From assembly GCF_024345495.1 (NCBI RefSeq), contig NZ_JAGQBF010000014.1, positions 1 through 64,000 of the forward strand: a DNA stretch of 64,000 nucleotides. Reading direction: 5' to 3'. Of the stretch, positions 3,857 to 6,520 are shown piece after piece; within the stretch, counting starts at the first letter, position 1; every line of letters begins with the position of its first letter. The position numbers and the translations under genes are program-made. Source of the DNA: Synechococcus sp. RedBA-s. GTDB lineage: Bacteria; Cyanobacteriota; Cyanobacteriia; PCC-6307; Cyanobiaceae. The notes under the pieces are model-generated. The model was given only the letters and a program-made list of their open reading frames with translations, did not search any database and was not told the origin of the DNA.

Positions 3857-4418
3857 TTGCTGATGGCTGGGGCATGGAGGCTCCGGCGGCCCCGGGTGAT
3901 CACCGCAACGCCATGGTGGCCGCCTGCAGTTCTGAGCTGTCCAAGGGCCGGATTGAGCCTGATGCTCCAGCAGCAGCAACACCCGGGCGCCAAGAACCCG
4001 GTGACGGTCTGCCGTCAGGTGATCGATTTTGCGCTCAAGCCCAACCGGTTGCTGGTGCTGGAGGCTGGCGACAGCTTGAACCTCATCGCCGAGCGCTACG
4101 GCACCACCCACCGTGCAGACGTTGCGGGCGGTGAATTCGGATCTGGCTCAGCAGGGGCCGATCACCACGGCAGGCGGCGACACGCTCAAGCAACTGGCGA
4201 TCCACTACGACACGACGGTGGATTGGTTGTGGCTCTACAAACCGGACTACGACCGCTGGCCCCGCAGTGATCCGTTCCCCGTTGGCATCCGACTGGGTGT
4301 GGGTGTGGGTCAGGATCCCTGCAATGCCGATCTCGTTTTGAGCCCATGCGTTGCCTTGCCCCTCTGCTGGCCCTTGCTGCAGCCGTCGGTCCTTTCCTCT
4401 GCGGTGCCCCTGCTGTGA
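3857..4418 (+). pseudogene. Frameshifted LysM-domain protein
   Basis: Two reading frames together give one LysM-type protein. The first (from 3857) ends in the start of a LysM motif, LEAGDSLNLIAERYGTT. The second (from 4113) continues LRAVNSDLAQQGPITTAGGDTL and WLWLYKPDYDRW. The switch is at 4099-4113, where the run ACCACCCACC has one C too many to keep frame; removing one C restores the join TTVQTLRAVNS. LysM domains bind peptidoglycan or related glycans. After GIRL the second frame runs into the next gene without its own clear end. It may be a pseudogene or a single-base sequence error. Confidence 0.6.
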
Positions 4419-4600
4419 TGGCGGCCCCGGATCCGGCCGCCCAGGGTGGCACCAAGGCGATATTCGCCACCAAAGCCGAGGCGGAAGCTGCCGCGAAACA
4501 CTTCAACTGCAAGGGCGCCCACAAGATGGGTGAGATGTGGATGCCCTGTGCCAGCCACGGCGATGCCTCCGGCACTCACACCAGCCCGATGGCGCACTGA
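4346..4600 (+). CDS. Secreted small DUF3721 protein
   Basis: An 84-residue protein with a signal peptide (hydrophobic core LLALAAAVGPFLCGAPAVMAA, cleavage likely near residue 27), followed by one DUF3721-like domain: KAIFATKAEAEAAAKHFNCKG, then AHKMGEMWMPCASH. The two cysteines (FNC and MPC) frame the domain and may form a disulphide or bind a ligand. Its stop overlaps the ATG of the next gene (TGATG), and that gene ends in the same domain, so the two probably act together in the cell envelope. Function unknown. Confidence 0.75.
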   Translation: MRCLAPLLALAAAVGPFLCGAPAVMAAPDPAAQGGTKAIFATKAEAEAAAKHFNCKGAHKMGEMWMPCASHGDASGTHTSPMAH

Positions 4601-5028
4601 TGGCCAATTCAGCCTGTGGTACCAAACCCAAGCTCATCTCGATCGGCATCGCCCCCCTCGGGATCATCTCGATCGGCATCGTGCCGATGGGCGTGGTGAG
4701 CATCGGCATCGTGCCGATGGGTGTAATCAGCATCGGTGCCGTGGCCATGGGGGTGATCAACGCCTCCGTGGTGGGGATGGGCGTGCTGATCGCCGGCGTC
4801 AATGTGATGGGTGTCTGGTGGGTCGGCCTGGAGGGGATGGGCCCCTACCGGCTGGGGGGATCAGCCGGGCAGGTGCATCACCAGCACGGGCAGCAGGGGG
4901 GCAGCCCGAATCTCTACGCCTACCCGAGCAAGCAGATGGCACTCCAAAAGGCGACAGAGCTGGGCTGCGAGGGCGTCCATGCCATGGGGTCGCTGTGGAT
5001 GCCCTGCCAGGAGCATCCACAGCCGTGA
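4600..5028 (+). CDS. Decapeptide-repeat protein with C-terminal DUF3721 domain
   Basis: A 142-residue protein. After an 11-residue lead come seven consecutive 10-residue repeats (residues 12-81): LISIGIAPLG, IISIGIVPMG, VVSIGIVPMG, VISIGAVAMG, then three more diverged units. Glycine is fixed at position 10 and is usual at position 5, so the units read as paired pentapeptides. The C-terminus (~residues 98-142) is a DUF3721-like domain, YPSKQMALQKATELGCEG then VHAMGSLWMPCQEH, as in the gene just upstream. The hydrophobic glycine-phased repeats could form a beta-solenoid or sit in a membrane. No signal peptide is evident. I chose ATG 4600 from the TGATG overlap. Confidence 0.75.
   Translation: MANSACGTKPKLISIGIAPLGIISIGIVPMGVVSIGIVPMGVISIGAVAMGVINASVVGMGVLIAGVNVMGVWWVGLEGMGPYRLGGSAGQVHHQHGQQGGSPNLYAYPSKQMALQKATELGCEGVHAMGSLWMPCQEHPQP
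4633..4842 (+). repeat. Seven 30-bp tandem repeats inside a coding gene
   Basis: The 210 bp encoding the seven decapeptides is a 30-bp-period tandem array. Units two and three are nearly identical at the DNA level (the core atcggcatcgtgccgatggg occurs twice), and the later units diverge. It is a coding repeat that could expand or contract by slippage. Confidence 0.8.
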
Positions 5029-5038
5029 CCCAGCGCCT

Positions 5039-5469
5039 TCAGCGCACCAGCAGACCGATCGGTCCGAGCGCCAGGAAGCCGCCGAACAGAGCAAGCACCG
5101 GGCAAGCTTGGCGGTCCAGTGGGCCGGCAGGCGTCTGAGCACGAGATAGGTGCCGCCCCGCCACTCACCACCAGCGAGCCGGCGAACGCCCCCAGCCGCC
5201 AGCTGGCAGCCGTGAGATCACCGGGCGCCTCCTGGCCGTGGAGCAAGGTGTTCATCGCCGATGACGCAGGCCAGGGCCCAGAGCTACAGCTGGCCCGAGA
5301 TGTAGGAGGCGGCAGCCCCCATGGCGATCAATAGCAGCAGATGGTCGGTGCCAAGCAGGGGATGGAGGGAACCGGCGGCTGGGCCGCCAGGACCACAGCC
5401 AGGGGCGAGAAACAGACGATCGGGGCCAGGGACCTGGCGGTCGGATTGGAGGGTGAAGTCATCGAACAT
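5039..5469 (-). pseudogene. Broken HupE/UreJ-family membrane protein
   Basis: Read on the minus strand, HupE-like pieces appear in several frames. The order is MFDDFTLQ (from 5469), HPLLGTDHLLLLIAMGAAAS and YISGQL with an in-frame stop, WALACVIGD, ASWRLGAFAGSLVVSGGAA, TYLVLRRLPAHWTAKLA, and finally VLALFGGFLALGPIGLLVR with a normal stop at 5039. The HPLLGxDHLL motif is typical of HupE/UreJ proteins linked to nickel uptake. At least three frame changes plus a stop make it nonfunctional. Confidence 0.6.
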
Positions 5470-6047
5470 CCCGGTCCACGCCGGGGTTGAGGGGAACAGG
5501 AAACGGCGAGCGTTCTGACTCAGGAACCACACCGGAGGGTGGGGCTCCATCCCAGCTGCGGGACAGCGCCGGACTCCCATCGGGCTTTCCTCGTTGCCTT
5601 TCGGGCGTGTCCACCGAAAAACGTTCGCTCCCATTGTGCGCCGATTGCCGCTGCTGGGCCGCTGCCTGGGGCAAGGTTCAGACTTCCGCTGGCCCTGGAA
5701 CGGAATGATGGCGCACACGTCACCCGTGCAGATCGACCGCCTCGTGCGGCAAGGGGGAGCCCTGTTCTTTTCCCAGCAGGAGCTGTGGGCCGCACGCTCC
5801 TGCTTAAGTCCTATCCCCCTGGCGAGCCCATTCCGCTCGCCCTGCATCTCCTTGGCCTGGTATCTGGCTTGCTTGCGCTTTTCGTTCAGCGCTGATGGAT
5901 CCACGCTTCCTCCGTCAGCTCGATCAACGAAGCGGCGATCGTCTCTCTTGCCATGGGCAGGGCGGACCCCCCATGGTCCTACTGGACCTTCGCGAGCCAC
6001 CATCAGCAGATGAAGGAGCCATCGTTGGAACGTGAGTGGAAGCTTCC
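5470..6047. other. Gene-free stretch, nothing recognised
   Basis: No convincing gene was found between the HupE relic and the antitoxin gene. Short plus-strand ORFs end at 5895 (tail reading LALHLLGLVSGLLALFVQR) and overlap a 46-codon ORF at 5895-6035, but neither resembles a known family. The stretch is probably degraded sequence like its flanks. Confidence 0.5.
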
Positions 6048-6242
6048 ATGGCGATCGCGATCGAACTCAGCGACCACCAGGCCCAGGCGCTGAGCGAAGT
6101 TGCTGCACTGCTCCAGGTTCCAGAGGCTGTGTTGGCCGCTGCAGCTGTGTGGGATCTGCTGGCTCACCAGTCCGCCGATTTTGATGCTGCCGCGCAACGC
6201 GTGCGGGACAAGAACCAGGAGCTCTATCGACGCCTGGCTTGA
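6048..6242 (+). CDS. Small antitoxin-like protein upstream of a Doc-type toxin
   Basis: A 64-residue acidic, helical protein (MAIAIELSDHQAQALSEVAA at the start) without a recognised fold signature. It is called an antitoxin from its size, its position directly upstream of a Fic/Doc gene and the TGATG stop-start overlap, the normal arrangement of Phd-Doc modules. GTG 6036 would add four residues. Since the toxin gene is shortened, the antitoxin may no longer be needed. Family assignment is inference from context. Confidence 0.55.
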   Translation: MAIAIELSDHQAQALSEVAALLQVPEAVLAAAAVWDLLAHQSADFDAAAQRVRDKNQELYRRLA

Positions 6243-6520
6243 TGCGTTGGCCGCACCTGACCGAGGTACTGGAGCTGCACTGTTGCCTGATTCAGCAGAG
6301 TGGAGTCAGGGCGTGCCTACGCGATCTGGGCTTGCTGGAAGCCTCTCTGGCCCAGCCCCGCCAGAGCGTTGCCGGTGTTGATCTTTTCCCCGGATTGATG
6401 GCGAAAGCAGCAGCCCTGGGCTTTTCCCTGATCCAGCACCCCTTCGTGGACGGGAACAAGCGCATCGGCCATACCGCCATGGAGACCACCTTGGTGCTCA
6501 ATGGATTGGTCTGGGAGTGA
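6242..6520 (+). CDS. Doc-type Fic toxin, C-terminally truncated
   Basis: A 92-residue Fic/Doc protein. Visible are LRDLGLLEASLAQP, the second conserved block AAALGFSLIQHPFVDGNKR with the Fic signature HPFVDGNKR, and GHTAMETTLVLNG. Doc proteins transfer a phosphate or AMP to targets such as EF-Tu, using the histidine of this motif. Typical family length is about 125-130 residues. Here the frame stops at LVLNGLVWE, and the last ~30 residues are replaced by an IS5 transposase fragment. The catalytic motif survives but the C-terminal helices are gone, so activity is doubtful. Confidence 0.7.
   Translation: MRWPHLTEVLELHCCLIQQSGVRACLRDLGLLEASLAQPRQSVAGVDLFPGLMAKAAALGFSLIQHPFVDGNKRIGHTAMETTLVLNGLVWE

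Follow-up and report, generated by a model that had tools for sequence, protein, structure and literature searches.

A tandem pair of DUF3721 genes with a fixed-length glycine- and methionine-phased array, a candidate metal-handling module of picocyanobacteria

Two overlapping small genes on the + strand of a 64,000-nucleotide stretch of DNA from Synechococcus sp. RedBA-s (the whole stretch that was analysed, hereafter the window) encode two DUF3721 proteins, the first apparently exported and the second carrying seven glycine- and methionine-phased 10-residue units ahead of its domain. Genes of this kind are widespread in the picocyanobacterial family and often lie beside metal-regulation genes, which goes beyond what the first-pass annotation of this DNA had proposed. 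The pair was read, with a probability of roughly 0.55, as a picocyanobacterial metal-handling module, in which exported and membrane-associated metal binders would buffer Zn/Cu.

Results

Gene pair and DUF3721 domain

The features of the two genes (gene 1 and gene 2) are collected in Table 1. One base is common to both genes, inside TGATG (the stop of gene 1 and the ATG of gene 2). The tandem DUF3721 pair with the TGATG overlap, as given by the first-pass annotation, was recovered with both ORFs in place, and the domain assignment was borne out by both proteins matching the DUF3721 profile (PF12518) above the curated Pfam cut-off of 27 bits (61 bits for gene 1 and 55.4 bits for gene 2). The description of gene 1 as secreted agrees with a signal-like N-terminus (by eye), the hydropathy of which reaches its maximum of 1.99 at residue 3, and the protein is apparently exported.

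Table 1. Positions of the gene pair and of its parts in the window.
Feature	Position	Strand	Basis
Gene 1: single-domain DUF3721 protein, 84 aa	4346..4600	+	ORF; DUF3721 61 bits; hydrophobic N-terminus
Gene 1 likely Sec signal peptide, residues 1-26	4346..4423	+	By eye; hydropathy
Gene 1 DUF3721 domain, C-x-G-A-H-x-M-G-x2-W-M-P-C	4463..4558	+	Pfam profile; motif
Gene 2: array-DUF3721 protein, 142 aa	4600..5028	+	ORF; Pfam; homologues in family
Gene 2 N-terminal C-G-x-K-P-K motif ahead of array	4615..4632	+	Family alignment
Seven 10-residue units, type I-S-I-G-I-V-P-M-G-V	4636..4845	+	Repeats; alignment
His-rich linker HHQH	4876..4887	+	Sequence; His common at corresponding family-alignment columns
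Gene 2 DUF3721 domain	4921..5019	+	Pfam; alignment

For the comparison of loci, the best 80 of 343 loci from a scan of named genomes (including WH7803, WH 5701 and many Prochlorococcus) were taken, and one of them (L099, whose protein contains X) was removed to leave 79. In 63 of these 79 loci from the best 80 of 343, gene 2 is immediately preceded by a DUF3721 partner gene, with the gene-2 starts picked by rule (a narrower rule gives 62), and 20 of the 63 pairs have the identical one-base overlap. Gene 1 was not found by the pairing rule in the other 16 of the 79 loci of this best-80-of-343 set, the partner-gene pattern being one that overlooks divergent partners. The residues C, G, H, G, W, M, P and C are identical in 63/63 gene-1 partners, most of them being required by the partner-finding pattern itself. 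A strict lipobox pattern was matched by 7 of the 14 Prochlorococcus gene-1 proteins versus 1 of the 49 others, and the remaining seven from Prochlorococcus have Gly-Cys or Ala-Cys behind a hydrophobic stretch (by eye), so gene 1 is lipoprotein-like in all 14 pairs from Prochlorococcus. In the gene 2 domain, C, G, H, M, G, W, M, C and H are invariant in 46/46 proteins, and the candidate ligands are spaced as C-x3-H-x8-C-x2-H.

The NCBIfam search gave no match at E <= 1. Neither DUF3721 nor PF12518 was mentioned in the literature covered by our search, most subscription journals being outside its reach, and the gene pair appears to be uncharacterised so far. The DUF3721 domain is already known and both proteins exceed the cut-off of its family, but the Pfam entry gives no function and the family does not imply fusion to a Gly/Met array; it is the combination of array and domain that is new.

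In the window the pair is bordered by a broken LysM-like gene (by eye) on one side and a HupE remnant on the other, and no regulator adjoins it there. The LysM-like gene (3857-4340, +) lies directly upstream of gene 1 in several broken frames, and a 137-aa piece of it had no Pfam match. The HupE/UreJ permease remnant (5269-5385, -; 25.5 bits) lies just downstream and contains one in-frame TAG, and two stop-free HupE matches were found elsewhere in the genome of the window (2.7 Mb in 61 contigs). At 6036-6520 (+) a small ORF is followed by a 93-aa Fic/DOC-domain ORF (50 bits) in a toxin-antitoxin-like arrangement.

Anatomy and length of the array

Gene 2 begins with MANSACGTKPK, and its units are, in order, ISIGIAPLGI, ISIGIVPMGV, VSIGIVPMGV, ISIGAVAMGV, INASVVGMGV, LIAGVNVMGV and WWVGLEGMGP, degenerating toward the C-terminus from the fourth on. 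Glycine recurs about every 5 residues, and Met every 10 residues from unit 2, just before the second Gly. Among the 18 glycines of residues 11-90, 14 share one phase of five, a value that 20,000 shuffles of these residues never reached (shuffle maximum 10); the glycine-phased decapeptide array carrying a Cys-containing domain, as first annotated, is thereby upheld with its seven units. The array is hydrophobic throughout, with 19-residue windows above 1.6 from every start at residues 10 to 59. That adjacent units are near-identical at the DNA level was too strong a statement: adjacent 30-base units agree at 22, 23, 21, 19, 18 and 16 of 30 positions, and the highest identity (88% over 2.2 copies) belongs to units 2-3 in a shifted register only.

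In the family alignment of 88 extracted proteins (some of which are the same loci entered through two routes) the array aligns without gaps, the phased glycines through the sixth unit are invariant bar one, and the array is far better conserved than the linker. Met stands at alignment columns 51, 61, 71, 81 and 91 in 88/88 proteins, and unit 1 has Leu instead in 86/88. The C and P of the N-terminal motif are present in 88/88 and its first G in 86/88, the extraction pattern itself requiring C, G/S and P. In a register test, from which proteins with fewer than 70 residues beyond the Cys motif (e.g. the stop-broken L143) were left out, the Gly and Met positions of units 1 to 5 were at a constant distance from the N-terminal Cys in 101 of 102 distinct proteins, and the sole protein out of register (L148) lacks five residues. 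The suggestion that the copy number could vary is therefore not sustained, array length being essentially fixed in the family, and a variable-number repeat is ruled out. The puzzle is that an array of low-complexity appearance is nearly invariant, whereas repeat numbers usually drift.

Predicted structure of gene 2

AlphaFold2 models were made for the gene 2 protein of the window (46 sequences in all) and for a compact orthologue, L115 (32 sequences). Both models have a beta strand once per ten residues in the array, with a pLDDT there of only about 40-62, and both form DUF3721 as a helix plus a beta hairpin (block pLDDT 72-92). On the basis of the 10-residue-period strands in both models and the hydrophobicity of the array, a beta rather than a helical array is favoured. 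Foldseek with the first model against the PDB returned nothing at E <= 0.001, and the profile against PDB sequences returned EmrE only (E 1.8). The chains that aligned best to the L115 model with VIA-align were CPAP G-box sheets and an injection-system baseplate protein, both at Z 6.4, then a phiKZ spike at 6.1 and OspA at 5.7 or lower, scores of Z 6.4 or less being in the range that the tool flags as common. Likeness to OspA, to the single-layer sheets of the CPAP G-box and to phage or injection-system spikes thus consists of alignments of a low-confidence model at Z about 5-6.4, and no sequence kinship of these proteins with the array was seen. Of the first-pass description, the tandem pair and the array-borne Cys domain stand, while the period-10 strands, at an array pLDDT of about 40-62 and Z of at most 6.4, do not distinguish a solenoid from a sheet or a membrane-inserted array, and "solenoid or membrane-embedded" is a possible reading only.

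Two repeat families with a five-residue period were compared with the array. The GLTT family consists of xGLTT pentapeptides and is known from nematodes. Gene 2 matches the GLTT repeat (PF01744) at 52 bits versus a cut-off of 21 and has the five-residue glycine period in common with it, but its 142 residues do not contain any GLTT; the match was taken as one of periodicity and kinship was rejected, and a literature search on 'GLTT repeat' gave nothing. The pentapeptide-repeat beta-helix proteins (PF00805) are like the array in the five-residue period and in the hydrophobic residue beside Gly, but gene 2 did not match their profile at E <= 1, a search in which the HMMER filters discard most weak matches.

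Distribution

The nearest named homologues of gene 2 are from Synechococcus and Cyanobium. Of the 300 family genomes, 248 contain a homologue at E <= 1e-5 (175 of 197 when only near-complete genomes are counted, and 54 of 59 genera), 8 of the 248 genomes matching only at E ~1e-6 to 1e-5 and possibly by DUF3721 alone; gene 2 is therefore a trait of the family, within which the repeat-DUF3721 architecture is widespread. DUF3721 was present in 13 of 194 sampled cyanobacterial genomes, all 13 of the picocyanobacterial family, and an array match in 53 of 244 sampled cyanobacteria, that family included. In the six proteins examined from outside the family (L147, L149-L153) a Cys precedes a similar array, and the C-terminal end is His-rich in L149-L152 and has a few His in L147.

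An array-only paralogue without DUF3721 occurs in the genome of the window (L002 1471-1824; G000:C60:42254), flanked by a histidine-biosynthesis-like ORF (by eye) and a matrixin-type protease gene. In Prochlorococcus, a second array gene lies downstream of the array-DUF3721 gene in L101 (5520-5864; no DUF3721 by Pfam) and in L102 (+417 from the array gene). No evident metal neighbours were seen by eye within ~3 kb of the array-only genes L002, L147, L149, L150, L152 and L153.

Phage cargo was ruled out, with 0 matches in 50,697 phage records and 0 confirmed of 7 stretches of viral contigs that fitted the pattern. Among 72,556 plasmid records there was one weak array-only match, from Nostoc, over 30% of the query.

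Metal genes around the array-DUF3721 loci

MerR homologues were found at 20 of the 79 loci (best 80 of 343), and at 17 of these loci the gene is immediately upstream in divergent orientation. All 16 adjacent homologues that are full-length have CNC and a C-terminal CGG, a pattern which we take to resemble that of divalent-metal (Zn/Cd/Pb) sensors of the ZntR/CadR-like kind. The stretch that separates MerR from gene 1 contains, in 17/17 cases, a shared block of operator-like appearance with imperfect arms (~TCTCCA / CTGGAG), after which come TAGGnT and then the gene 1 start.

A convergent Fur-family gene lies just downstream at 12 loci of Synechococcus and Prochlorococcus in the best-80-of-343 set (including WH7803, the only one on which Pfam was run; one of the twelve is labelled a gammaproteobacterial MAG). 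These 12 loci are without gene 1 by the pairing rule, so the Fur link concerns gene 2 alone. At the same 12 loci (e.g. L098 3634-4650) a radical-SAM plus DUF3641 gene lies upstream of the array gene, its product being presumably ArsS-like; the all-against-all clustering of neighbours, in which out-of-frame ORFs from GC-rich DNA predominated, was used solely as a pointer to this gene. ZnuB and a Zur-like gene were present within ~5 kb at 4 loci of two kinds in the best-80-of-343 set, namely L107 and L114 (Prochlorococcus, with ZnuA too) and L081 and L082 (Synechococcus/Cyanobium).

A match to MerR, Fur, CobW or Znu (SEG filter, E 1e-8) was obtained at 38 of the 79 loci from the best 80 of 343 versus 0 of 20 regions picked arbitrarily from seven other family genomes, a comparison that is suggestive only, since the queries were chosen post hoc from genes seen beside array loci or beside DUF3721 genes elsewhere, kinship links the loci, and the controls come from other genomes. 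A HupE-type permease, silent under the filter and therefore searched unfiltered at E 1e-4, was found at 15/79 loci of the best-80-of-343 set versus 0/20 control regions. Addition of HupE raises the former count to 42/79, and leaves 37/79 loci of the best 80 of 343 without a match, in place of 41/79. No match to the MerR, Fur, CobW and Znu queries was found at 20 of the 25 loci nearest the window (L044-L068) or at 13 of the 18 Prochlorococcus loci. The recurrent linkage of the gene pair to metal regulators and transporters is accordingly taken as suggestive.

A porin is near 21 of the 79 loci (best 80 of 343). At four Prochlorococcus loci only (L122 3673-4839, L112, L107 and L114), a His/Met-rich OprB-like porin is divergent from the DUF3721 operon, with a Pfam OprB match for L122 and none for L107. 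The L044 porin, the single other one scored, is an OprB with an SLH domain, and the genome of the window has five OprB matches; for these reasons the porin was given little weight.

Contexts of other DUF3721 genes

Elsewhere in the genome of the window, two DUF3721 genes face a MerR and then a DUF305 gene, and a third is beside a multicopper-oxidase fragment. Around twelve single DUF3721 genes of relatives (seven genomes, orthologous sets included, about six distinct contexts), DUF411, MauE, ZnuA, ABC-3, ArsP_1, DUF305, multicopper oxidase and RND were seen among the 25 commonest of 61 Pfam families. None of these eight was among the 25 commonest of 149 control families, a view in which single occurrences are possible. 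For the 12 case regions the scan covered 108 of 147 ORFs, and for the controls 134 of 177 (16 of 20 regions); some DUF3721 genes dropped out at the ORF-picking step, DUF3721 being matched by 5 of the 108, and DUF411 was found in 5 members of the scanned case ORFs. In two of the about six contexts (L191/L193 and L199) no evident metal gene was seen by eye. In L196, L197, L198 and L200 (Prochlorococcus), a DUF411-like gene, a DUF3721 gene and one for a small membrane protein stand in a row (order by eye), which is likely to be a metal operon. The small membrane protein next to some of the DUF3721 genes was 'PepSY-like' by eye, and Pfam gave only a sub-threshold FtsX.

Discussion

In the metal-handling module proposed here, gene 1 would be exported via a Sec signal (lipoprotein-like in Prochlorococcus), and its DUF3721 site (Cys, His, Met, Cys) would bind a transition-metal ion. 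Gene 2, which probably shares a transcript with gene 1, would carry the same type of domain, most likely held at or in the membrane by the hydrophobic, Gly/Met-phased, fixed-length beta-strand array, and its N-terminal Cys, His linker and Met ladder may be further ligands. Outside the cytoplasm the two proteins would jointly buffer Zn(II) and/or Cu(I) or hand them on, and a metalloregulator, which may be MerR in Cyanobium-type strains, would adjust their expression. Speaking for this reading are the pairing of the genes, the invariant candidate ligands and the metal genes near array loci and near other DUF3721 genes; weighing against it are the 41/79 loci (best 80 of 343) without a MerR, Fur, CobW or Znu match, the array-only genes and the two single-DUF3721 contexts in which no metal neighbours were evident by eye, and the pair in the window, which no regulator adjoins. 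A bolder form, in which the array conducts or stores metal as a fixed-length membrane-associated beta structure and its Met-thioether ladder links the N-terminal Cys to DUF3721 as a relay for Cu(I) or a different soft metal, together with the exported partner, was considered very unlikely.

As to the metal, zinc or cadmium is favoured by the Cys pattern of MerR and by Zur/Znu, and copper by the Met ladder and by the DUF305, oxidase and DUF411 neighbours. That the module is specifically a Cu(I) store or relay made of the Met ladder with Cys/His, with a CopM-like function, is a tentative possibility. Met every 10 residues and the adjoining of other DUF3721 genes to DUF305, multicopper-oxidase and DUF411 genes speak for it, as does the example of CopM of Synechocystis PCC 6803, described as a periplasmic copper-binding protein with two DUF305 domains (PMC4335983). 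CopM is alike in being a small exported Met/His-containing protein, and DUF305 and DUF3721 genes are clustered in the genome of the window; but gene 1 and gene 2 have a different domain, a tandem arrangement and a hydrophobic array, and neither has DUF305 by Pfam, so the pair may work like CopM and is not a CopM. Against a copper-only function, the neighbours are equally suggestive of divalent metals, by the CNC...CGG of MerR and by Zur/Znu at 4 loci of the best-80-of-343 set.

It is somewhat unlikely that the array is structural first, a glycine-packed beta sheet or solenoid for anchoring or oligomerising, with DUF3721 as a structural zinc site and the metal neighbours reflecting other members of the domain family. 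Its fixed length, its conservation far above that of the linker, its occurrence without DUF3721 in other cyanobacteria where no metal neighbours were evident by eye, and a C-x3-H-x8-C-x2-H spacing that would also suit a structural site are all consistent with such a role; yet metal genes flank the array genes of the family too, beyond the other DUF3721 genes, and a strict 10-residue Met ladder is, in our judgement, unusual for mere packing. Still less probable is an envelope or photosynthetic assembly protein whose metal-gene neighbours are a matter of chance or of clustering in genome islands. A homologue in 175 of the 197 near-complete family genomes suggests housekeeping, and about half of the loci of the best-80-of-343 set are without any tested metal gene, but such genes were in 0/20 arbitrary regions and several different arrangements recur.

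In the zinc study of WH8102 the Zur regulon is given as synw0968-0973 plus synw0359-0360, a set with several genes of unknown function, and the authors state that genome mining yielded no zinc efflux pump orthologues (PMC9337993). 'DUF' does not occur in the main text of that paper, which was counted against the metal reading.

The metal-handling module, if correctly read, would give DUF3721 a testable function by way of a widespread and metal-linked gene pair. No phototrophs of the ocean outnumber Prochlorococcus and marine Synechococcus, which are sensitive to trace metals, and the pair is a candidate for metal buffering in picocyanobacteria.
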